Source of the DNA: Haloarchaeobius sp. HME9146
GTDB lineage: Archaea > Halobacteriota > Halobacteria > Halobacteriales > Natrialbaceae
Length of the DNA: 64,000 nucleotides
Direction of reading: 5' to 3'
Assembly: GCF_025399835.1 (NCBI RefSeq)
Contig: NZ_JAODVR010000001.1
Coordinates: 496,001-560,000 of the forward strand
Below the pieces are notes generated by a model, which worked only from the letters and a program-made list of their open reading frames with translations, was not told the origin of the DNA and searched no databases. The translations under genes were made by a program, and so were the position numbers. This document shows, piece by piece, positions 29,370-39,918 of the stretch (its first letter is position 1; each line of letters starts with the position of its first letter).

Positions 29370-29855
29370 ATGTCCATATCGACTGACGGTATCGATTCGA
29401 TAGAGAGTCGCAACGCGATGGTACTGGGGGGCGGAATCGCGGGGCTGGTCGCCGGGGTCGCGTTCGGCCTGCTCATCCAGTTCCAGCTCGGCCGGATGAC
29501 CGCAATCGGCGCGATGTACACGCTGGGCGAGCCGAGCCTGAGCCTCGGCTGGGTGGCCCACCTGGCTCACAGCGCCCTCTTCGGTGCGCTGTTCGGCGTC
29601 GTCGTCGACCGCGAACCCCTCCGGGAGAAGATCGGCGCGTATCACGTCGGTGCCGGCACGGCCGTCGCCTTCGGTGTCGCGCTGTGGGCACTCAACATCG
29701 TGTTCCTCTGGCCGCTCTGGCTGAACAACGTCGGCTTCGGTCAGGGGCTGCCCATCCCGAATATCGCCATCATGCCCCTCGTCGGGCACGTCGTCTACGG
29801 GCTGTTGCTCGGAATCGCGCTGGCGATCCTCGTCAGAACCCGCGCACTACACTAG
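29370..29855 (+). CDS. Four-TM haloarchaeal membrane protein, paralogue B
   Basis: 161 residues with the same layout as the upstream gene: GGGIAGLVAGVAFGLLI, WVAHLAHSALFGALFG, and a final block LWLNNVGFGQGLPIPNI...LVGHVVYGLLLGIAL. Conserved membrane His residues (in helix 2 and in GH of helix 4) are shared by both copies and may bind a cofactor or ion, which is inference. Its last 23 bases overlap the 3' end of convergent argF. Confidence 0.75.
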   Translation: MSISTDGIDSIESRNAMVLGGGIAGLVAGVAFGLLIQFQLGRMTAIGAMYTLGEPSLSLGWVAHLAHSALFGALFGVVVDREPLREKIGAYHVGAGTAVAFGVALWALNIVFLWPLWLNNVGFGQGLPIPNIAIMPLVGHVVYGLLLGIALAILVRTRALH

Positions 29856-30783
29856 TCAACAGTGCCTTCTGGGCGTGCATGCGGTTCTCCGCCTGCTGCC
29901 AGATGAGTGAGCGCTCGCCCTCGATGGTGTCGTCGTCGACCTCCTCGCCGCGGTGGGCGGGCAGGCAGTGCATGACCTTCGTGTCGGAGCCCGAGAGGAG
30001 GTCCTCGTTGAGCTGGAAGCCGTCGAAGGCGGCGACCTTCTCCTCGCGTTCGTCCTCCTCGCCCATGCTGACCCAGACGTCGGTGTAGACCACGTCGGCG
30101 TCGGCGACGGCCTCGGCCGGGTCGTGGGTGACCGTGGGCTCGTCGCCGAGGTCGGCACACGCCTCCAGCGTCTCGTCGCTGAGGCCGTAGCCCTCGGGCG
30201 TCGCCACGGTCAGGTCGATGCCGGTCATGGCACAGCCCTTCGCGAACGACTGGGCGACGTTGTTGCCGTCGCCGACCCAGGCCGCCGTTACCTCGGAGAG
30301 GTCGCCGAACTGCTCCTGGATGGTCTGCAGGTCCGCGAGCGTCTGGCACGGGTGGGCGTCGTCGGTGAGGCCGTTGACGACCGGTACGTCGGCGTAGGCC
30401 GCGAGTTCCGACAGGTCCTCGTGGTCGAACAGGCGCGCCATGATGACGTCCACGTAGCCCGAGAGGGCGCGCGCCGTGTCCTTGATGGGTTCGCCGCGGT
30501 CGAGTTGCGTGTCGTCCGGGCCCAGGAAGACGGCGTGGCCGCCGAGCTGGGTCATCCCGGTCTCGAAGGAGACGCGGGTGCGCGTCGAGGGCTTCTCGAA
30601 CACCATCGCCAGCGTCTTGCCGGCGAGGTCGGCGTGGGACTCGCCCGACGCGAGCTGTTGCTTGTAGGTGGCCGCCTTCTCGAGGACGGCGTGCAGTTCG
30701 TCTGCGGTCAGGTCGTCGACGGTCAGGAAGTGCTTCGTGTTCGGTGCTGGCATCGGTGTGGTGGAATCGGTGTGGGTACTCAT
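29833..30783 (-). CDS. argF: Ornithine carbamoyltransferase
   Basis: 316 residues that make citrulline from ornithine and carbamoyl phosphate. Carbamoyl-phosphate-binding motifs are KPSTRTR and HPCQ; the ornithine site is MHCLPAHRGEEV. The start at 30783 overlaps the argE stop by ATGA, which decides it over the internal ATG at 30753 (MPAPNTKHF). It is the last gene of the arginine cluster, and its product feeds ArgG and ArgH encoded at the other end. Confidence 0.96.
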   Translation of the reverse strand: MSTHTDSTTPMPAPNTKHFLTVDDLTADELHAVLEKAATYKQQLASGESHADLAGKTLAMVFEKPSTRTRVSFETGMTQLGGHAVFLGPDDTQLDRGEPIKDTARALSGYVDVIMARLFDHEDLSELAAYADVPVVNGLTDDAHPCQTLADLQTIQEQFGDLSEVTAAWVGDGNNVAQSFAKGCAMTGIDLTVATPEGYGLSDETLEACADLGDEPTVTHDPAEAVADADVVYTDVWVSMGEEDEREEKVAAFDGFQLNEDLLSGSDTKVMHCLPAHRGEEVDDDTIEGERSLIWQQAENRMHAQKALLTSVVRGF

Positions 30784-31835
30784 TGCAGTTCGTCGGAGAC
30801 GGTCTCGAGGACCGCGATGGCGTTGTCGTAGTCGGACAGTGCGAGGCGTTCGTCCGGCGCGTGGTCCAGTGCCGAATCGCCCGGGCCGTAGGTGGCCATC
30901 GGGCAGTCCCACGCGGCGGCGTACAGGTTCACGTCGGCGGTGCCGGTCTTGCGGAGGAGGCGGGGGTCGCCCCCTCGTCGGCGGATGGCGACGCGGAACG
31001 CTCGTGCGACCTCGCTACGCGGGCTGGCCATCACGGGCGGGATGTGGTCGTCCCACTCGATGGTGCCCGTCTCGAGCGCGTCTTCGACCGTCTCCTGGAT
31101 GCCTTCGGCGTCCGCGCCGGGGGGAATCCGGAACTGTGCGTCTATCGTCGACTCGTAGGCGAGCCCGTCGTCGGTGACGCCCCCGTCGATACTGACGGGC
31201 TTCGCGGTCACTGAGTCGAACACTTCGCCGTCTGCGGCGGGCGGGAAGGCCGCCTCGATGCGGCCCCACCAGGCCATCGCGTCCTGGATAGCATTGGGCT
31301 CGGGGCGCGAGGTGTGTGCGGAATCGGTGTGTGCGGTGTATTTTGCAGTGAGGAAGCCGCGGTAGCCCAGCGTCACGCCGTCCCAGCCCGAGGGCTCGCC
31401 GTTGATGACGGCCTCGGGTTCCTCGCGGTCTTCGACGAGGAAGCGTGCGCCGCGGGAGTCGGACTCCTCACCGACGACGCCGACGAAGGAGACGCCGGTG
31501 CGGACGGCCGCGACGGCCATCGCACACAGCGGCCCGGTCGCGTCGACGGTCCCGCGGCCCCAGAGCACGTCCTCGCCGTCCTCCTGCTCGATACGGACCG
31601 GGATGTCTCCGGGCACCGTGTCGATGTGCGAGGTCAGCAGGACCGAGTCGTCGGCGGGTGCGCGGACGTTCCCGACCTCGTCGATGTACGCGTCCCGGTC
31701 GTGAGCCTGGAAGAAGTTCCGCAGGCGCTCGGCGGCCGCCATCTCCTCACCCGAGGGCGAGGGGATGGAGACCATGGATTCGAGCAGTTCGCGGGCGACC
31801 CCGTCGCTGATCTGGGTTGCCATGCTCGTGCTCAT
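30780..31835 (-). CDS. argE: [LysW]-ornithine hydrolase (M20 peptidase family)
   Basis: 351 residues of the LysK/ArgE type. It releases ornithine from the LysW carrier. Metal-binding motifs of M20 peptidases are present: LTSHIDTVPG, WGRGTVDATGP and GEESDSRGARF. A late His lies in SALDHAPDER. The chosen ATG at 31835 (MSTSMATQ) overlaps the argD stop by 4 bases; MATQIS at 31823 is an alternative. The size (about 350) fits LysK rather than bacterial ArgE (about 380). Confidence 0.9.
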   Translation of the reverse strand: MSTSMATQISDGVARELLESMVSIPSPSGEEMAAAERLRNFFQAHDRDAYIDEVGNVRAPADDSVLLTSHIDTVPGDIPVRIEQEDGEDVLWGRGTVDATGPLCAMAVAAVRTGVSFVGVVGEESDSRGARFLVEDREEPEAVINGEPSGWDGVTLGYRGFLTAKYTAHTDSAHTSRPEPNAIQDAMAWWGRIEAAFPPAADGEVFDSVTAKPVSIDGGVTDDGLAYESTIDAQFRIPPGADAEGIQETVEDALETGTIEWDDHIPPVMASPRSEVARAFRVAIRRRGGDPRLLRKTGTADVNLYAAAWDCPMATYGPGDSALDHAPDERLALSDYDNAIAVLETVSDELQ

Positions 31836-32968
31836 TCCTCCGTCCCCAGGATGTCGCAAAGCGCCTCGACGACCTCGTCGGCGTGGGCTTTCGTCATCGT
31901 CAGCGGCGGGAGCAGTCTGACGACCGTTCTCCCGGCCGGGAGCGCCAGAATCTGGTGCTCGATGGCGAGGTCGCGCAGGACCTTGTTCGCCTTGCGCCCG
32001 ACCTCGATACCGACGAGCAGGCCCGAGTTACGGATGTCGCGGACCGGCAGGTCTGCAGCCTCGAGTTCGGACACGAGGTAGTCGCCCACTGCCTGGGCAT
32101 TGCCCGGCAGGTCCTCGTCCACGATGACGTCGAGGGTCGCGGACGCGGCGGCGGAGACGACCGGGCCGCCGGAGAACGTCGAGCCGTGCGGGCCCGCGTC
32201 CTCGGCGATCCAGTCGGCACACAGCGTCGCGCCAAGCGGCAGGCCATTCGCCAGCCCCTTCGCGCTCGTCACGATGTCCGGGGTGACGCCCGCGGCCTCG
32301 CAGGCCCAGAACGAGCCAGTGCGGCCGAGGCCGGTCTGGACCTCGTCGAAGACCAGGGCTGCGCCGTGGTTCTCGGTCGCCTCGCGGGCCGCTTCGAGGA
32401 ACTCCGTCGTACTGGGATTCACGCCACCCTCGCCCTGCACGGGCTCGAGGATGACGGCCGCGGTGTCGTCGTCCACGGCTTCAGCGAGTTCCTCCGCGTC
32501 GCCGTAGCTCACGAACTCCACGTCCGAAAGGAGCGGCTCGAACGGCTTGCGGTACTTCGGTTTCCAGGTTGCCGAGAGCGCGCCCATGGTGCGGCCGTGG
32601 AAGCCACGCTTGGTGGCGACGATTTTCGTACTCTCGGTCGCACTGCGTGCGAACTTGAGAGCCGCCTCGTTGGCTTCGGTCCCCGAGTTACAGAGCCAGA
32701 CGTTGCTGATTCCCTCGGGCCCGAGCGCGCCGAGTTTCTCGTAGAGCTCGTCGCGCGAACTGGTCGGGTACGAGCCCTGGACGAAGGTGAGGTCTGCGAC
32801 CTGCTCTTGCACCGCGCCGACCACGTCCGGGTGGGAGTGGCCGGCGGGCGTGCAGGCGTAGCTCGCGCCCATGTCCAGGTACTCGGTACCGTCGTCGGCG
32901 TAGAGGAACACGTCCTCGCCGCGTTCGATGCTGATGGGTTTGCGTGAGAAGACGAAGTCGTTGGGCAT
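31832..32968 (-). CDS. argD: [LysW]-glutamate semialdehyde (acetylornithine-type) aminotransferase
   Basis: 378 residues, class III PLP aminotransferase. The Schiff-base Lys lies in VTSAKGLANGLPLGA, and LVFDEVQTGLGRTGSFWA is the PLP-ring-binding stretch. It transfers an amino group from glutamate to LysW-bound glutamate semialdehyde, giving LysW-ornithine. It is immediately adjacent to argB with no spacer and overlaps argE by 4 bases. Confidence 0.94.
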   Translation of the reverse strand: MPNDFVFSRKPISIERGEDVFLYADDGTEYLDMGASYACTPAGHSHPDVVGAVQEQVADLTFVQGSYPTSSRDELYEKLGALGPEGISNVWLCNSGTEANEAALKFARSATESTKIVATKRGFHGRTMGALSATWKPKYRKPFEPLLSDVEFVSYGDAEELAEAVDDDTAAVILEPVQGEGGVNPSTTEFLEAAREATENHGAALVFDEVQTGLGRTGSFWACEAAGVTPDIVTSAKGLANGLPLGATLCADWIAEDAGPHGSTFSGGPVVSAAASATLDVIVDEDLPGNAQAVGDYLVSELEAADLPVRDIRNSGLLVGIEVGRKANKVLRDLAIEHQILALPAGRTVVRLLPPLTMTKAHADEVVEALCDILGTEE

Positions 32969-33847
32969 CTACTGGGTCACCTCCTGCTCGTCGTCGGCTG
33001 TGTCGGCGTCGGTCAGTCCGAGGGCACTCGGCAGAATTGTCGTGCCGTCGCCCGCGAGTGCGGACTGGATGGGTTCGTCGTTGTTCGCGGTGGCGACCAC
33101 GACGGAGGACGCTCCCGTCTCGAGGGCTTCCTTCGTCGCCATCACCTTCTTCGTCATGAAGCCTTCCGCGGCGGCTTCGAGGCCGTCCCAGTCCTCGGCC
33201 GTCTCGACCGTGTCGATGCGGGTCGACTCGTCCTCGGGGTCGGCGTAGACGCCGGAGACGTCGGTGAGGACCACGAGGTCCGCGCCGAGTGCGCCCGCGA
33301 CGTGAGCTGCGGCACGGTCCGCGTCGGCGTTCACCGCGGTGAGCGTTCCGTCACGCTCCTCGCCCAGCATCGGGACGGTCACGACCGGTGTGTAGCCGCC
33401 CGAGAGCAGAGTGTCGAGGAGGTCGGTGTTCACGGACTCCAGCTTCCCGGAGTGGTCACCGCGCTTGATCTTCTTCTTGCCGTCCTCGAGGACGCGAACC
33501 GCGGACTTGCGCTTCCCCTTCAGGAGGCCGCCGTCGACCCCGGAGAGGCCGACCGCGTTCACACCCTGGTTCTGGAGCCCTTCGACCAGCTGCGTGTTGA
33601 GCTTGCCCGGCATGACCATCTGGAACACCTCCATGGTCTCTTCGTCGGTGAAGCGCCCGACGACGCCGCCGGGGGTCTCGACGTAGGTCGGCTCCTTGCC
33701 GAGGGCTTCGAGCGTCTCGTCGACCGCGGTCGAGCCGCCGTGGACGACCACGACCTCCTCGCCGGCGGCGACGAGGTCCTTCACGTCGGCGAGTGCCCCT
33801 TCCGGGTTGACGGCGCGGGCACCGCCGATCTTGACGACCGTCGTCAT
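32969..33847 (-). CDS. argB: [LysW]-glutamate kinase (acetylglutamate kinase family)
   Basis: 292 residues of the amino-acid kinase fold. The N-terminal VVKIGGARAV and VVVHGGSTAVDETL are the phosphate-binding loops, and LVVLTDVSGVYAD is the ATP-site motif. It phosphorylates the LysW-bound glutamate. The His-Gly-Gly motif and overall spacing match the LysZ branch rather than bacterial ArgB. Confidence 0.93.
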   Translation of the reverse strand: MTTVVKIGGARAVNPEGALADVKDLVAAGEEVVVVHGGSTAVDETLEALGKEPTYVETPGGVVGRFTDEETMEVFQMVMPGKLNTQLVEGLQNQGVNAVGLSGVDGGLLKGKRKSAVRVLEDGKKKIKRGDHSGKLESVNTDLLDTLLSGGYTPVVTVPMLGEERDGTLTAVNADADRAAAHVAGALGADLVVLTDVSGVYADPEDESTRIDTVETAEDWDGLEAAAEGFMTKKVMATKEALETGASSVVVATANNDEPIQSALAGDGTTILPSALGLTDADTADDEQEVTQ

Positions 33848-33848
33848 T

Positions 33849-34916
33849 TCAGGGACTCCCCACGGGGTGCAGCCCCGTGAACTCTAGTCCGGCAGTCTCC
33901 TCGAATCCCAAAGCGACGTTCGCGCCGTGGATGGCCTGGCCGGCCGAGCCTTTCATCATGTTGTCGATGGCCGAGAACACGACGATGCGCTTGTTCGCGG
34001 CGTCGAGCTCGAAGCCGACGTCGCCGTAGTTCGTCCCGGCGACGGCCTTCGGTTCGGGGTAGCGATACGAGCCGGAGCCGCCCGCGACGAGGCGCATGAA
34101 GGGTTCGTCCTCGTAGGCCCCGCGGTAGGCGGTCCAGAGGTCGCGCTTCGACACCGGCCCGTCGGGGAAGACGTGGCAGGTCGCGCTCGCGCCGCGGACC
34201 ATGTCCACGGCGTGGCAGGTGAACGAGACCGAGAGGCCGAGCCACTGCTCGATTTCCGCCTCGTGGCGGTGGCCCGTCGGCGCGTAGGGACGGACGACGC
34301 CGGAGCGCTCGGCGTGGCTGGAGGCCTCGCCGCCGCCCGCGCCGCCTTCGCTACTGCCCACCTTCACGTCCACGACGACGTGTGCACCGTCGAGGACACC
34401 AGCATCGGCGAGCGGTTTCAGGCCGAGGATGGTGGCCGTCGCGTTGCACCCACCGGAGGCGATGATGTCCGCCCCGGGCAGGTTCTCGCGGTTCACCTCG
34501 GGGAGCGCGTATTCGGCCTTCTCCAGTTTCTCCGGGCACGCGTGCCCGTCGTACCAGTCGTCGTACTGTCCCTCGGTGGCGAGACGGAAGTCCGCCGAGA
34601 GGTCGACGACCGTGTCTGCCGCGTCCTCGAACTCGTCGATGTGCTCCATCGTGACGCCGTGGGGCGTCGCCGCGAACAGCACGTCGACCGATTCGAGGTC
34701 GTCAGGTTCGGTGAAACGGAGTTCCGAGCCGCGGAAATTCGGGTGGATGCTCCCGATGGATTTACCAGAGTACTGGCGGCTCGTCGCCTGCGTCAGTTCG
34801 AAATTGGGGTGGCCGGCGAGCAGGCGGAGGAGTTCCCCGCCCGTGAAGCCGGAGCCGCCGACGACGCTGGCGGAGACGGTCTCACTTTCCTCGTCCGTGG
34901 CCGTCGTCACGCCCAT
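33849..34916 (-). CDS. argC: [LysW]-glutamyl-phosphate reductase
   Basis: 355 residues. The Rossmann motif VVGGSGFTGGELLRLLAGHP lies near the N-terminus, and SGGCNATATI holds the catalytic Cys that forms the thioester intermediate. It reduces LysW-glutamyl phosphate to the semialdehyde with NADPH. An unusual insertion, SSEGGAGGGEASSHAERSG, lies after the catalytic region. The start touches the argX stop. An alternative ATG is not seen nearby. Confidence 0.94.
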   Translation of the reverse strand: MGVTTATDEESETVSASVVGGSGFTGGELLRLLAGHPNFELTQATSRQYSGKSIGSIHPNFRGSELRFTEPDDLESVDVLFAATPHGVTMEHIDEFEDAADTVVDLSADFRLATEGQYDDWYDGHACPEKLEKAEYALPEVNRENLPGADIIASGGCNATATILGLKPLADAGVLDGAHVVVDVKVGSSEGGAGGGEASSHAERSGVVRPYAPTGHRHEAEIEQWLGLSVSFTCHAVDMVRGASATCHVFPDGPVSKRDLWTAYRGAYEDEPFMRLVAGGSGSYRYPEPKAVAGTNYGDVGFELDAANKRIVVFSAIDNMMKGSAGQAIHGANVALGFEETAGLEFTGLHPVGSP

Positions 34917-35800
34917 CAGGCTGTCACCTCGGCCACGTCGTCTGTCTCGGCGTCCGTCTCGACGACCGATTCGAGCCAGTCGACCACCTTCGCGGGCACG
35001 TCGACCTTCGAGGCGTCGTTCAGCGACTTGAACTCGACCGTGTGGTTGACCTCGTGGACGGTGTAGCCCTCGTCGGTCTCCATCAGGTCGATGCCGAGCA
35101 GGCCCCCGCCGACCGCCTCGGAGGCGCGCTTGACCAGCGCCTTGGCCTCGTCGTCGAGTTCGAACTCTTCAGTCTCGGCGCCCTTGGCCGCGTTCGTGAG
35201 CCAGTGCTCCGAGGAGCGCGCCATCGCCGCGACCGGCTCGCCGTCGGTGGCGAGGACGCGGATGTCGCGGTCCGGCTTGGCGACGAACTCCTGGATGTAG
35301 AACACCTTGTGCTCGTAGTGCCCGAGCGTGGCCTTGTGCTCCAGGATGGCCTCGGCGGCCGAGCGCGAGTCGATCTTCGCCATCAGGCGGCCCCACGAGC
35401 CCACGACGGGCTTGAGAACGCAGGGGTAGCCGAACTCCTCGATGGCTTCGAGGGCCGCGTCCGTGGTGAACGCGACCTTGGTCTCGGGCGTCGGGACGCC
35501 CGCACCAGCCAGTGCGAGGCTGTTCTTCGCCTTGTCGGCACAGACCTCGGCTGTCTCGGCCGAGTTCACGACCGGGATGCCGTAGGCCTCACAGAACGTG
35601 GTGATGTAGAGGCTGCGCGAGGTCGCGACACAGCGGTCGAGCACCACGTCCAGGCCCTCGAAGATGGCTGGCGGTTCGGTGAGGCCGAACTGCTGGGTCC
35701 GGACGTCGATCTTGACGACCTCGTGGCCACGCTCGCGCAGTTCCGAGAGGAGCAGCTTCTCGTCCCTGCGAATCCGGGAGTAGAGCAGTCCGACCTTCAT
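34916..35800 (-). CDS. argX: Glutamate-LysW ligase (ATP-grasp)
   Basis: 294 residues of the RimK/LysX ATP-grasp family, starting MKVGLLYSRIRRDEKLL. It ligates glutamate through its alpha-amino group to the C-terminal Glu of LysW, opening the carrier-bound pathway. ATP-grasp motifs include PCVLKPVVGSWGRLMAKI and GIDLMETDEGYTVHEVNHTVEF. Because haloarchaea are generally thought to make lysine by the diaminopimelate route and this cluster contains argF, argG and argH, the arginine-specific ArgX role is preferred to LysX. It starts four bases after the lysW stop. Confidence 0.92.
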   Translation of the reverse strand: MKVGLLYSRIRRDEKLLLSELRERGHEVVKIDVRTQQFGLTEPPAIFEGLDVVLDRCVATSRSLYITTFCEAYGIPVVNSAETAEVCADKAKNSLALAGAGVPTPETKVAFTTDAALEAIEEFGYPCVLKPVVGSWGRLMAKIDSRSAAEAILEHKATLGHYEHKVFYIQEFVAKPDRDIRVLATDGEPVAAMARSSEHWLTNAAKGAETEEFELDDEAKALVKRASEAVGGGLLGIDLMETDEGYTVHEVNHTVEFKSLNDASKVDVPAKVVDWLESVVETDAETDDVAEVTA

Positions 35801-35804
35801 CGGC

Positions 35805-35969
35805 TTATTCCCCCCAGTCCTCTTCGAGCTCGGGTGCCACGTCGAGTTCGACGGGGTCTGTGGCGAGCACTTCCAGCTCGGCACCGCAGGTGGTACAGTC
35901 GAGAATCTCTCCGGCTTCCAGGTCGTCGTGCAGGGTCACGTCGGCCCCGCACTCGATGCATTCTGTCAT
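35805..35969 (-). CDS. lysW: Amino-group carrier protein LysW (54 residues)
   Basis: This gene is too short for usual ORF cut-offs but is clear. It starts MTECIECGADVTL. A zinc ribbon with Cys4, Cys7, Cys25 and Cys28 (CIEC...CTTC) is followed by a very acidic body and the diagnostic C-terminus EEDWGE. The final Glu54 carries the growing substrate as an isopeptide. All five carrier-dependent enzymes follow directly (argX, argC, argB, argD, argE). A strong TATA box 21-30 bases upstream puts the mRNA start at or next to the ATG. Confidence 0.95.
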   Translation of the reverse strand: MTECIECGADVTLHDDLEAGEILDCTTCGAELEVLATDPVELDVAPELEEDWGE

Positions 35970-36166: not shown

Positions 36167-37624
36167 TCAGACATACTCGTTCACCTCTGCCATCAGGGCG
36201 GTGTGGGCGTCGTCGAGCGCCCCACGTTTCGCCTCGAGCTCGTCGGTGTCCGCGGTGAGGGTCGCCTCGGCCTCGTCGAGTGCGGCTGCCACCGCGTCGG
36301 GAGCCGGGCCGCCGGCCGAGTCGCGCATCGCCACGCTCTCGGCCGGGTCGAGGGCTGCCTCGACCGCGTCCTTGTCGACGTAGGTGTCGAGCGATTCGCC
36401 CAGCACGTCTTCCGCCGCGGCGTCGAGGGCCGCGTAGTCGGCACCGGTCTCACCCGCCTTGGCGACGAGTTCGTGCGCGGTACGGAACGGGACGCCCTCC
36501 ATCGCGAGCAGGTCCGCAACGCCTGTCGCCGTCGAGAAGTTCGAGCCGGCCGCGTCGGCCAGGTCGTCCTCGTTCCAGGTCGCGGTCGCGATGCCACCGG
36601 CGGCCACGCCGACCGCCTGGGTCACGGTGTCGACCGAATCCCAGACGTGCGGGGTCGCGTTCTGCAGGTCGCGGTTGTACGCACGCGGGAGTCCTTTCAG
36701 TGTCGTCAGGATGCCCATCAGCCCGCTGTTCGCCTCGCCCGCGACCGAGCGGACGAGTTCGAACGTGTCGGGGTTCTTCTTCTGGGGCATGATCGAGGAG
36801 GTCGAGGAGTAGTCGTCCGAGAGGTCCAGGTAGCCCTGGTTCGCGAAGATGACCACGTCCTCCGAGAGCCCCGACAGGGTCGTCGCGAGGTTCGCCATCG
36901 CCGACGCGACCTCCACGAGGAAGTCACGCGCCGAGGAGGCGTCCATCGAGTTCGTCAGGACGCTGTCGAACCCCAGCAGTTCGGCGGTCCGGTCGCGGTC
37001 CACGTCGAAGGGGGTGCCGGCGAACGCCGCCGCCCCGAGCGGGTTCTGGTTGATGCGCCCGAACGCGTCGAACAGGCGGGCCGTATCCCTGGCAAGCGCC
37101 TGCTCGTACGAGAGCAGGTAGTGCCCGACCGTCGTCGGCTGGGCGTGCTGCAGGTGTGTGAAGCCGGGCATCACCGTGTCGGCGTGTTCGGTCGCGCCCG
37201 CGACGAGTGCGGCGCGCAGGTCACACACCGCCTCGATGGCCTCGAGCACGTCCTCGCGCAGGCGCAGGCGGATGCAGGTCGCGACCTCGTCGTTGCGCGA
37301 GCGGGCGGTGTGCATCTTGCCGCCCTCGGGGCCGACCTGCTCGATGACCGCGCTCTCGATCGCCTCGTGGACGTCCTCGCCGTCGGGGAGCGCCGTGTGC
37401 CCCTCGACCTCGACGACGTTCAGCGCCTGCAGGATGGTGCCGGCGGTCTCGTCGTCGATGATACCCTGTTCGGCCAGCATGACCACGTGGGCGCGGTCGA
37501 CGGCCACGTCGGCCGCGAAGATGCGCTCGTCGGCGTCGAGCGAGGAGAGGAAGCCGCGGGCGGGGCCGCCGCTGAAGCGGTCGCCACGGACAGCCGTCCC
37601 CTCGTCGCTCTCGAAGTCCGTCAT
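36167..37624 (-). CDS. argH: Argininosuccinate lyase
   Basis: 485 residues of the fumarase/aspartase superfamily. It splits argininosuccinate to arginine and fumarate. The signature SSIMPQKKNPDTFE holds the catalytic Ser loop, and GFTHLQHAQPT holds the conserved His pair. It follows argG by five bases on the same transcript. The 197 bases after it hold the lysW promoter region. Confidence 0.96.
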   Translation of the reverse strand: MTDFESDEGTAVRGDRFSGGPARGFLSSLDADERIFAADVAVDRAHVVMLAEQGIIDDETAGTILQALNVVEVEGHTALPDGEDVHEAIESAVIEQVGPEGGKMHTARSRNDEVATCIRLRLREDVLEAIEAVCDLRAALVAGATEHADTVMPGFTHLQHAQPTTVGHYLLSYEQALARDTARLFDAFGRINQNPLGAAAFAGTPFDVDRDRTAELLGFDSVLTNSMDASSARDFLVEVASAMANLATTLSGLSEDVVIFANQGYLDLSDDYSSTSSIMPQKKNPDTFELVRSVAGEANSGLMGILTTLKGLPRAYNRDLQNATPHVWDSVDTVTQAVGVAAGGIATATWNEDDLADAAGSNFSTATGVADLLAMEGVPFRTAHELVAKAGETGADYAALDAAAEDVLGESLDTYVDKDAVEAALDPAESVAMRDSAGGPAPDAVAAALDEAEATLTADTDELEAKRGALDDAHTALMAEVNEYV

Positions 37625-37629
37625 CTATC

Positions 37630-38877
37630 TCAGTCGTCGGCCGGGAGTTCAGGTTCGGTTTCGGCCTGCTTCGCGACCGAGTTCGCGAGGCGCGACTGGA
37701 AGCCGTGGTACTTCGCCACGCCCGTCGCGTCCTCCTGCTCGATGCCGTCGACCGTCTCGGTGTTGAACGAGGCCGCGGACTCGGAGTAGACCGCGAAGTC
37801 GGACTCGCGGGAGACCACGCGGACCATCCCGCCCTGGAGCTTCACGGTGACGGTGCCCGTCACCTTCGTCTGGCTCTGGTCGATGTAGGCGTCGAGCGAT
37901 TTCATGAGGGGTGCGTCGACGAGGCCCTCGTAGGCCTTCTGTGCCCACTGGTTCTCGACCTGGGGCTTGAAGTCGCGCTCCTCCTTCGTGAACACGAGCT
38001 GTTCGAGGCCCTCGTGGGCTTCGAGCAGGACCGTCGCGGCCGGGTGCTCGTAGTTCTCGCGCACCTTCAGGCCGAGCATGCGGTCTTCCATCATGTCGGT
38101 GCGGCCGACGCCGTACGCGCCCGCGAACTCGTTCAGGTACTCGATGAGTTCGACCGGCTCGTAGGACTCGCCGTCGACGGCGACCGGGTAGCCGTTCTCG
38201 AACGTGATTTCGATGGTGGTCGTCTCGCCCGTCGGGGCGTCGGTCCACTCGTAGATGTCTTCCGGCGGGATGTAGCTCGGGTCCTCGAGGTTCTTGCCCT
38301 CGACCGAACGGCTCCAGAGGTTCGTGTCGATGGACCAGTCGCCCTCGTTGCCGCCCTCGACGGGCAGGCCCTTCTCGTCGGCGTACTCCTTCTCCCACTT
38401 GCGGGTCAGGCCGAGTTCGCGGACCGGCGCGATGACCTCCAGCGAGGAGTCACGCCAGACAGCCTCGAAACGCAGCTGGTCGTTGCCCTTGCCCGTGCAG
38501 CCGTGGGCGATGCCGGTGCAGCCCTGCTCCTCGGCGACCGAGAGGATGGCCTTCGCGATGACCGGGCGGGCCATCGCCGTCCCCAGGGGGTAGCCCTGGT
38601 AGGTCGCGTTCGCCTTCACCGAGTCCAGGCAGAGTTCCGCGAACTCCTCCTTGGCGTCGACGACGTAGTGTTCGAGGCCGAGCGCCTCGGCGGTCTCCTC
38701 CGCCTCGGCGAACTCGGCTTTCGGCTGGCCGACGTCGACGGTGACGCCGATGACCTCGTCGTACCCGTACTCCTCCTTGAGGAGCGGGACGCAGACGGTG
38801 GTGTCGAGGCCGCCCGAGAACGCGAGTGCTACTTTCTGGTTCGATGCTGTCGTGGAGTCCGATGTGTGTTGTGTCAT
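37630..38877 (-). CDS. argG: Argininosuccinate synthase
   Basis: 415 residues that join citrulline and aspartate with ATP. The PP-loop motif ALAFSGGLDTTV lies at the N-terminus after a Ser/Thr-rich head (MTQHTSDSTTASN), and GCTGKGNDQ is the conserved citrulline/ATP region. An in-frame TAA five codons upstream of the ATG rules out a longer protein. No Shine-Dalgarno is seen. The 175-base leader contains an Arg-rich 28-codon ORF and three hairpins (see those entries), suggesting control by translation of the leader. Confidence 0.96.
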   Translation of the reverse strand: MTQHTSDSTTASNQKVALAFSGGLDTTVCVPLLKEEYGYDEVIGVTVDVGQPKAEFAEAEETAEALGLEHYVVDAKEEFAELCLDSVKANATYQGYPLGTAMARPVIAKAILSVAEEQGCTGIAHGCTGKGNDQLRFEAVWRDSSLEVIAPVRELGLTRKWEKEYADEKGLPVEGGNEGDWSIDTNLWSRSVEGKNLEDPSYIPPEDIYEWTDAPTGETTTIEITFENGYPVAVDGESYEPVELIEYLNEFAGAYGVGRTDMMEDRMLGLKVRENYEHPAATVLLEAHEGLEQLVFTKEERDFKPQVENQWAQKAYEGLVDAPLMKSLDAYIDQSQTKVTGTVTVKLQGGMVRVVSRESDFAVYSESAASFNTETVDGIEQEDATGVAKYHGFQSRLANSVAKQAETEPELPADD

Positions 38878-38894
38878 GCCGTGTCCGTGTTACT

Positions 38895-38912
38895 GGCGGA
38901 CTGGCGTCCGCC
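38895..38912 (-). promoter_or_regulatory. Hairpin 17 bases upstream of argG
   Basis: GGCGGAC-4 nt loop-GTCCGCC is a perfect 7-bp GC-rich stem in the argG leader RNA, ending 17 bases before the ATG at 38877. It could pause or end transcription or block ribosome access. It is the third of three consecutive hairpins in the leader. Confidence 0.5.
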
Positions 38913-38960
38913 GACCGATTGTAGTTTGAAACTGTGCGCCGCGATGGTGAGAATGTAGTA

Positions 38961-38974
38961 GGCCCTAACGGGCC
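38961..38974 (-). promoter_or_regulatory. Hairpin enclosing the leader-ORF stop codon
   Basis: On the minus strand GGCCC-GTTA-GGGCC is a perfect 5-bp stem with a 4-base loop. The TAG stop of the 28-codon leader ORF (38965-38967) lies in the loop and the first stem base. A ribosome finishing the leader would cover this hairpin, while one stalled at the Arg codons just upstream would not. Confidence 0.45.
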
Positions 38975-39051
38975 GGTCGTCGTCGCGGTCGTCGGACAGC
39001 AACACCGCTCGCGGAGAACGAAGGCGCGAGGTGACTGCGGTGTTGCTTCAT
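38965..39051 (-). CDS. Arginine-rich 28-residue leader peptide upstream of argG
   Basis: MKQHRSHLAPSF... ends VRRPRRRPAR and a TAG stop. Six of the last nine residues are Arg, encoded CGA CGA, CGA CGA CGA and CGT; CGA looks uncommon in neighbouring genes by eye. The ATG lies 27-34 bases after a TATA box, so the mRNA should begin at or within a few bases of this codon, the normal arrangement for haloarchaeal leaderless translation. argG begins 87 bases after its stop. By analogy with bacterial attenuators, ribosome stalling at the Arg codons could report charged tRNA-Arg levels. Translation and regulation are inferred. Confidence 0.55.
   Translation of the reverse strand: MKQHRSHLAPSFSASGVAVRRPRRRPAR
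38998..39047 (-). promoter_or_regulatory. Long stem overlapping the argG leader ORF
   Basis: AGCAACACCGC (38998-39008) and GCGGTGTTGCT (39037-39047) are perfect 11-base inverted arms. They are extended by TCGCG (39009-39013) and CGCGA (39025-39029), with a 7-base bulge on one side. The structure covers codons 2-17 of the leader ORF, so a translating ribosome would melt it. As DNA it could also be an operator. Confidence 0.5.
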
Positions 39052-39077
39052 CGTACCCAGAGTTAGATTCACCTTGG

Positions 39078-39085
39078 TATTAAAA
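39078..39085 (-). promoter_or_regulatory. TATA box of the argG leader
   Basis: TTTTAATA on the minus strand, centred near 39082, predicts a transcript start at about 39052-39057, next to the ATG of the leader ORF (39051) and about 175 bases before argG. A weaker AT-rich palindrome, AGTTTCAAACT (38923-38933), is the only other promoter-like element before argG. Confidence 0.55.
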
Positions 39086-39148
39086 CCTTGTGGGGCAGCA
39101 AAAGTTACACGTGTGTGAGTGCCACGCACATTCTCGGTTTGGAACTGG

Positions 39149-39155
39149 TTTTATG
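39149..39155 (+). promoter_or_regulatory. TATA box of the small membrane protein gene
   Basis: TTTTATG lies 25-31 bases before the ATG at 39180. This selects that start and excludes the longer in-frame ORF from 39090. Confidence 0.45.
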
Positions 39156-39179
39156 TCCAGCCGACCCCCACGTTTTCGT

Positions 39180-39374
39180 ATGTTCGACAACCGTGCGGAC
39201 CTCGAAGTCGAGTCGTTGCTCCGTATCGTCCTGGTCCTGGTCGTCCTCTGGATCGCACTGGAGGTCGTGGGGGAGATAGTTGGCATCTTCGGCGCACTGC
39301 TCGGGCCGTTCCGGCCGCTGCTCGGGCTGGCCATCATCGTCCTCATCGTGCTGTGGCTGACCGACCGGCTCTGA
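39180..39374 (+). CDS. Small two-TM membrane protein
   Basis: 64 residues. A short acidic N-terminus (MFDNRADLEVESLLR) is followed by two hydrophobic segments separated by a short turn (GPFRPLLG). It is typical of small haloarchaeal membrane proteins of unknown role. The TATA box sets the start. It is divergent from the argG leader and 43 bases before the RNA-ligase-like gene. Confidence 0.65.
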   Translation: MFDNRADLEVESLLRIVLVLVVLWIALEVVGEIVGIFGALLGPFRPLLGLAIIVLIVLWLTDRL

Positions 39375-39417
39375 GCCGGACCGTCACGCTCTTTTCGCTC
39401 GCTGGCAGAATACGACC

Positions 39418-39918
39418 GTGTACAGCGTCAACGTCCCGGTCCCCGGGTCGGTCGCCCGCCTCGCCAGCGACCTCCATCCCTTCTTACTCGATTTCGACCG
39501 GGTGCGAGAGGACTACACGCTCCTCGCCAAGCGCATCGGCGACCCCGAGCACTTCTCCGTGCGCGAGCACGAGGTCCGGCGGGCCCTGCACGGCCAGCCA
39601 GCCTTCGAGGTGCAGGTGACCGGCCTCGGTTGCTTCGAGCAGCCCACGAAAGGCACTGCCCCGGTCGTCTACTTCGAGGTCGAGAGTCCCGGCCTGCTGG
39701 ACCTGCACGAGCGCCTCGTCGACGAGTTCGGGGCCATCGGTGGGCTGGAGGGCGAAGACTACGTCCCGCACGTCACCATCGCCCGCGACGCCCCGCAGTC
39801 GGCCGCCGATAGGCTGCTGGAGCAAGACATCGAGCCGGTGACGTGGACGGTCAATCAGTTAGAAATCTTCGACTCGCGGTACCGGGAGGTGGCGGCGAGG
39901 ATCAGTCTCCCAGCCTGA
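39418..39918 (+). CDS. 2H phosphoesterase/2'-5' RNA ligase-like protein
   Basis: 166 residues beginning MYSVNVPVPGSVARLASDLHP (GTG start). The second catalytic motif is clear: PHVTIAR with HVTI at 118-121. The first His-x-Thr motif expected of LigT-like enzymes is not obvious; the aligned position may be DYTL (32-35), where Tyr replaces His, or HFS at 45-47. The family handles 2',3'-cyclic or 2'-5' RNA ends. If the first His is truly missing, the enzyme may be inactive or altered. Confidence 0.72.
   Translation: MYSVNVPVPGSVARLASDLHPFLLDFDRVREDYTLLAKRIGDPEHFSVREHEVRRALHGQPAFEVQVTGLGCFEQPTKGTAPVVYFEVESPGLLDLHERLVDEFGAIGGLEGEDYVPHVTIARDAPQSAADRLLEQDIEPVTWTVNQLEIFDSRYREVAARISLPA

Follow-up and report, generated by a model that had tools for sequence, protein, structure and literature searches.

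The window analysed here, a stretch of 64,000 nucleotides of haloarchaeal DNA with its closest named argG matches in Haloarchaeobius, contains on its minus strand an arginine gene cluster in the order argG-argH-argX-argC-argB-argD-argE-argF, which reaches down to position 29833 and carries a short leader ORF at its head. The first gene of the cluster, argG (37630..38877, minus strand), encodes argininosuccinate synthase, and argH, coding for argininosuccinate lyase (36167..37624, minus strand), begins 5 nt past it. These are followed by co-directional genes for a LysX-type ligase (argX), argC, argB, argD, an argE-type [LysW] hydrolase and argF (29833..35884, minus strand). On the other side, the argG promoter is adjoined by a divergent gene (39180-39374 of the window, plus strand) for a DUF7554 small membrane protein of unknown function.

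The leader ORF has 28 codons (MKQHRSHLAPSFSASGVAVRRPRRRPAR; 38965..39051, minus strand), and the TATA box of its promoter, P1 (TTTTAATA; 39078..39085, minus strand), lies 27-34 nt upstream of its start codon, so that the ORF is predicted to be leaderless or nearly so. Its C-terminal end reads VRRPRRRPAR before the stop codon: six of the last nine codons specify Arg, and this sensor run, RRPRRRPAR (38968..38994, minus strand), uses CGA for five of them and CGT for the remaining one. Among the 402 ORFs of the 64-kb window that start with ATG and span 15-60 codons, it alone has at least six Arg residues in the last nine codons. The end of the ORF at 38965 is separated by 87 nt from the argG ATG at 38877 on the minus strand. 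An earlier note on this DNA had pointed out the TATA box, the ATG at 39051, the 28-codon ORF, the 87-nt gap and the six Arg codons in nine with five CGA, and all these coordinates proved exact; it did not mention the G-free tail, the hairpin at the stop codon, the conservation across the class or the departure of codon usage from that of the local background.

The stop codon of the leader ORF, TAG (38967-38965), is enclosed by a terminal hairpin, GGCCC-GTTA-GGGCC (38961..38974, minus strand), whose counterparts in other leaders display compensatory pair changes, and directly 3' of it lies a G-free tail, TACTACATTCTCACCATC (38943..38960, minus strand). The N-terminal half of the ORF folds into a 5' hairpin (38998..39047, minus strand), which might act as a pause hairpin and has moderate support as a fold (z of -2.4 for the window and a mean z of -1.4 over 123 leaders). 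A second hairpin, GGCGGAC-GCCA-GTCCGCC (38895..38912, minus strand), is situated 17 nt upstream of the argG start, is found in this genus only, and could pair instead with the Arg codons near 38997-38986. A search of positions 38500-39500 against Rfam recovered no match at E<=1.

Conservation and architecture of the leader element

Regions upstream of argG were gathered from 80 public genomes and from further genomes, covering the range from genus to phylum level; after the removal of duplicates and four atypical sequences, 123 distinct leaders with the same layout were analysed, besides which degenerate leaders also exist. The earlier note had suggested looking for an Arg-rich short ORF in the argG leaders of relatives, and such an ORF was indeed recovered in practically all haloarchaea examined, with the 123 distinct leaders coming from 13 families. 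Sixteen families of the haloarchaeal order with a full argG match were sampled, and in these 13 a TATA-aligned short ORF ends in Arg codons, whereas the three families without the element (represented by L126-L130) have small genomes or an argG of low identity. The element is carried by several Haloferax species (L036, L041, L051-L062), occurs with a variant hairpin, GACCCC-GATA-GGGGTC, at one locus (L125), and was not seen in seven loci from outside the haloarchaeal order (L153-L159). A filter set combining an ATG-started ORF, an Arg cluster, a TATA box at the right spacing, at least two CGA codons and an adjacent hairpin was passed by 66% of 145 argG leaders, as against none of 955 control windows taken from the surroundings of hisG, trpC and pheA and none of 12 outgroup loci. 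Likewise, a covariance model built on the run, hairpin and tail, when searched in 61 genomes, gave essentially one match per genome, all of them at argG except for two weak ones; in the window's own genome the argG leader was the single match. As the leader loci are related by descent these counts are not independent observations, and the weight lies in the breadth over families. The existence of a conserved element at argG is very secure. Analogous His-, Trp- or Phe-rich leaders were not found upstream of hisG, trpC and pheA in 30 genomes each, which implies that the leader device is not a general one.

Aligned on the leader ATG, 99 distinct loci show a TATA box at -32..-25 preceded by BRE-like purines at -38..-34, a spacing that is expected in haloarchaea for transcripts with little or no 5' UTR and predicts where the transcript starts. 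When a start codon was assigned blind to frame, as the first ATG past the best TATA box, it shared its frame with the hairpin-adjacent Arg codon in 108 of 113 leaders, in 107 of them without an intervening stop. The distance from the ATG to the hairpin varies between 58 and 163 nt in the 123 leaders, and the length of the ORF between 22 and 57 codons. Comparison of close relatives shows N-terminal substitutions to be distributed about equally over the three codon positions; in the Arg run they number 11, 19 and 40 at positions 1, 2 and 3, in keeping with the silent-site substitutions that the earlier note had proposed to look for. Its suggested comparison of relatives gave a strongly positive outcome. 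Thus, the peptide as such is free to change, while its Arg codons are held. In two leaders (L093 and L075) the ORF is enlarged by the repetition of short segments that contain Arg, as though through duplication of sensor units.

The choice of Arg codons is strongest where the run meets the hairpin. The codon abutting the hairpin specifies Arg in 121 of the 123 leaders, being CGA in 106 and CGG in 15 and never CGC or CGT, and the two next Arg codons away from the hairpin are nearly as strict for CGA/CGG; at codons -2 and -3 Arg is present in 87 and 72 leaders respectively. CGA makes up 67% of the Arg codons of the runs as against 2.3% in argG of the same genomes, where CGC (77%) and CGT (12%) together account for 89%. 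Of the 137 Arg codons in the window's eight arginine genes, 11 are CGA. CGA is read by tRNA-Arg(UCG), and the tRNA-Arg genes found in this genome, a set that may be incomplete, comprise one each with the anticodons UCG, GCG, CCG and CCU. Such a codon choice is characteristic of a sensor that works at the level of codons and is specific for an isoacceptor, and it argues against peptide-based sensing.

The first base of the last Arg codon lies 3-5 nt from the hairpin in all 123 leaders. The stem is GC-rich, usually of 5-7 bp with a short loop, and occurs in variants such as GGGCC/GGCCC, GGCCC/GGGCC, CGGGC/GCCCG and GGGGTC/GACCCC, among others; the stop codon falls within the hairpin in 103 leaders and no more than 6 nt past it in another 18. 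A stem of at least 5 bp is present at the codon-adjacent site in 121/123 leaders but in 2.6% of shuffles. Because the first hairpin finder favoured Arg codons and G-poor tails, the test was repeated with a finder that took account of stem length and GC only, ignoring codons and tail: this recovered a hairpin in 87 of 99 leaders, compared to 20% of shuffles, and the codon preceding it was CGA or CGG in 86 of these 87. In a gap-free subset, in which just one of the five stem columns is variable on both sides, the covariation score was higher than in any of 500 shuffles or in any slid register. The tail that follows is about 17 nt long, with G at about 2% over the 16 nt past the hairpin as against 29% in random upstream 16-mers. 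A U-tract is absent after the hairpin (TTTT within 20 nt in 6.5% of leaders), and no antiterminator was found: even with the first 11 codons hidden, the median probability of the terminal hairpin was 0.99, and no competing conserved pairing was recovered. L012 and L013 have a sense codon at the place of the stop within the hairpin, which lengthens the ORF by 45-63 nt while the Arg run and hairpin are kept; this suggests that the position of the stop is not essential.

Proposed mechanism and competing explanations

The comparisons described above show the leader ORF, its frame, its codon choice, the register between codon and hairpin, the hairpin itself, the tail, the promoter spacing and the restriction to argG. 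A codon-hairpin register that is fixed amid an otherwise variable leader is what direct occlusion by a ribosome would demand. We favor, with a probability of roughly three in four, the interpretation that the haloarchaeal arginine cluster is headed by a leader-peptide attenuator, which gauges arginyl-tRNA and controls the transcription of argG. We infer four steps, namely translation of the leader, stalling, termination and the direction of the response. The P1 transcript would start at or a few bases upstream of the leader ATG, and a start at this point would allow ribosomes to load immediately and to trail the polymerase. With ample charged tRNA-Arg, the ribosome would traverse the CGA/CGG run, terminate inside the hairpin and depart. 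With the ribosome gone, the hairpin would close beside the G-free, unstructured tail, behind which lie at least 64 untranslated bases, and transcription would stop ahead of argG, either at the hairpin or by the action of the archaeal termination factor FttA/aCPSF1 on the unprotected RNA. When charged tRNA-Arg, above all the UCG isoacceptor, is scarce, the ribosome would stall with the last Arg codon in its A site; given that this codon lies 3-5 nt before the hairpin, the stalled ribosome would cover the 5' arm and block the hairpin, and transcription would proceed into argG. This direction is the one to be expected, since arginine shortage should raise synthesis, so that argG should be expressed upon stalling and its expression prevented once translation of the leader is completed.

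With regard to the terminating step, 59% of transcripts were terminated in vivo in Hfx. volcanii by a hairpin lying ahead of a termination site (PMC7237163), and hence the hairpin alone could potentially terminate. The main haloarchaeal terminator, in contrast, is a T stretch (PMC7237163), and the lack of a U-tract in the leader tail counts against a reading by termination. Polarity in archaea has been attributed to FttA (PMC12548453), and a G-free unstructured tail with an untranslated gap behind it would be compatible with such factor-dependent termination. The more specific proposition, i.e. that a leaderless leader peptide reads the charging of one tRNA-Arg isoacceptor at its CGA/CGG codons, acts through termination of the FttA type by means of the hairpin at the stop codon and a G-free loading tail, and constitutes the first ribosome-mediated amino-acid attenuator of archaea, seems to us about evenly poised between right and wrong; if it holds, tight coupling of transcription and translation in haloarchaea would be ancestral to nearly the whole class.

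The absence of a U-tract also speaks for the possibility that the sensor is the same but its effector is not termination, with the ribosome instead controlling the processing or stability of the mRNA, or access to the argG start, by way of the hairpin and tail. The G-free tail could in that case be a cleavage or protein-binding site, and the genus-specific second hairpin immediately upstream of argG might take part. However, the conservation of this downstream hairpin stops at the genus, and in Hfx. volcanii termination-reinitiation loses its coupling at distances above about 30 nt (PMC12548453), which makes it an improbable route across a gap of at least 64 nt between hairpin and argG; on balance we consider a non-termination effector unlikely. 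Nascent-peptide arrest akin to that of the fungal arginine attenuator peptide, wherein an Arg/Pro peptide together with free arginine would stall the ribosome at the stop codon, might seem to be favored by the richness of the run in Pro and by the frequency of R-P-G-R/L right before the stop. Yet the endings from the region of the last Arg (RPGR, RPGL, RPAR, RPAL, RRAL, RPGSP, RPAPSGQ and others) indicate that the residues past this Arg track the bases of the hairpin rather than a peptide motif, and a sensor at the peptide level would have no need of CGA/CGG in place of the usual CGC, leaving this explanation highly improbable.

The strong conservation of the nucleotide core CGACC[GGGCC]..[GGCCC] could alternatively be taken to mean that the element is not translated at all and functions as a protein-binding site or an ordinary hairpin terminator, with the Arg-rich frame arising by chance. 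This is difficult to reconcile with a start codon that is kept in frame despite its variable distance from the hairpin, with a promoter spaced to the leader ATG and with the third-position bias within the run, and we accord it very little credence. Finally, the leader ORF having its own promoter, and argG its own TATA box in many families, a free-standing microprotein gene with an Arg-rich product acting in trans might be envisaged; but the even spread of changes over the codon positions of the N-terminal half, the variable length, the lack of any Pfam or NCBIfam match to the peptide and the invariable location directly upstream of argG render its chances close to negligible.

Relationship to known attenuators

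Attenuation by leader peptides is a textbook bacterial mechanism that requires ribosomes to follow closely behind the polymerase. With the bacterial trp, his and leu attenuators the haloarchaeal element shares a short leader ORF at the (here predicted) 5' end of the transcript, upstream of a biosynthetic operon, a cluster of codons for the end product and the proposed dependence of hairpin folding on the position of the ribosome. It differs from them in its archaeal host and promoter and the predicted leaderless ORF, in possessing a single hairpin, and in Arg codons that abut this hairpin and appear isoacceptor-specific in their CGA/CGG choice. Neither mutually exclusive antiterminator and terminator structures nor an intrinsic terminator made of a hairpin and U-tract were found in the leaders, and for want of these a classical attenuator of the trp type is not supported. 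The attenuator of the earlier note is supported in the functional sense, control of argG by a ribosome at the Arg codons being the best-supported reading, but not in the classical trp sense.

In the regulation of tnaC by Rho, the stalled ribosome beside the leader stop codon masks the RNA from the termination factor, and the RNA downstream is G-poor. The haloarchaeal leader might be analogous in both respects, with FttA/aCPSF1 putatively taking the part of Rho in archaea; Rho itself is bacterial, and in tnaC it is free Trp that is sensed, by way of the nascent peptide. A further parallel is the arginine attenuator peptide of fungi (arg-2/CPA1 uORF), in that an upstream ORF confers arginine control on a gene of the arginine pathway. 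It differs in relying on a sequence-specific nascent peptide and eukaryotic scanning, with neither an Arg-codon cluster nor a hairpin; a conserved arrest peptide of the fungal type was not found in the haloarchaeal leaders, where the N-terminus is unconserved and the C-terminal residues vary with the bases of the hairpin. Leader peptides before amino-acid genes have also been described in Actinobacteria, some without an obvious terminator (PMC1262725). These resemble the haloarchaeal leaders in lacking parts of the classical attenuator, but are bacterial and concern Cys, Trp, Leu and branched-chain amino acids, and the portion of that study drawn upon here describes no G-free tail or codon-abutting hairpin.

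The earlier note knew of no described arginine attenuator in archaea, and our search of the open-access literature likewise found no leader-peptide attenuator for arginine or any other amino acid in this domain. The haloarchaeal leader apparently works like a bacterial leader-peptide attenuator and is apparently the first of its kind in archaea. If this is true, transcription and translation in haloarchaea would be coupled tightly enough for regulation, the control of arginine synthesis would be explained across a major archaeal class, and a natural substrate would be at hand for the study of archaeal termination. The element is directly testable in Haloferax, a genetic model genus.

A second argG promoter and other upstream features

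In many families, including that of Haloferax, a second TATA box is present near argG, downstream of the leader ORF; the window's genus is without it. In those families read-through from P1 would provide only a part of argG expression. At L010-L031 and other loci the second BRE/TATA promoter (AAACCAATGAATTTAAGTCC, for example) precedes the argG core by about 36-62 nt, and its location just upstream of argG suggests that a leaderless argG transcript probably exists too. A dRNA-seq study of Hfx. volcanii identified 16 leader ORFs in long 5' UTRs, among which argG is not included (PMC4983044); this counts against the attenuator, but perhaps comes about because argG starts mostly at its own promoter in this organism. 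The same study reported leader ORFs of 23 and 26 codons upstream of the gene for Trp-tRNA ligase and pheS (PMC4983044), which may be further amino-acid sensors.

Two other conserved features were noted between the leader ORF and argG. L010-L031 and other loci possess a box, GGTTAGCAG..GCTCTA..TTAATTT, about 60-100 nt upstream of argG and between the leader ORF and the second promoter, which is possibly an operator. In L079, L084, L089 and L097 a conserved CGCCGCCCACCGTCGGGTTCTGGGGCGG...ACCCGAC is present between the leader ORF and argG, and this could form an H-type pseudoknot ahead of the argG start.
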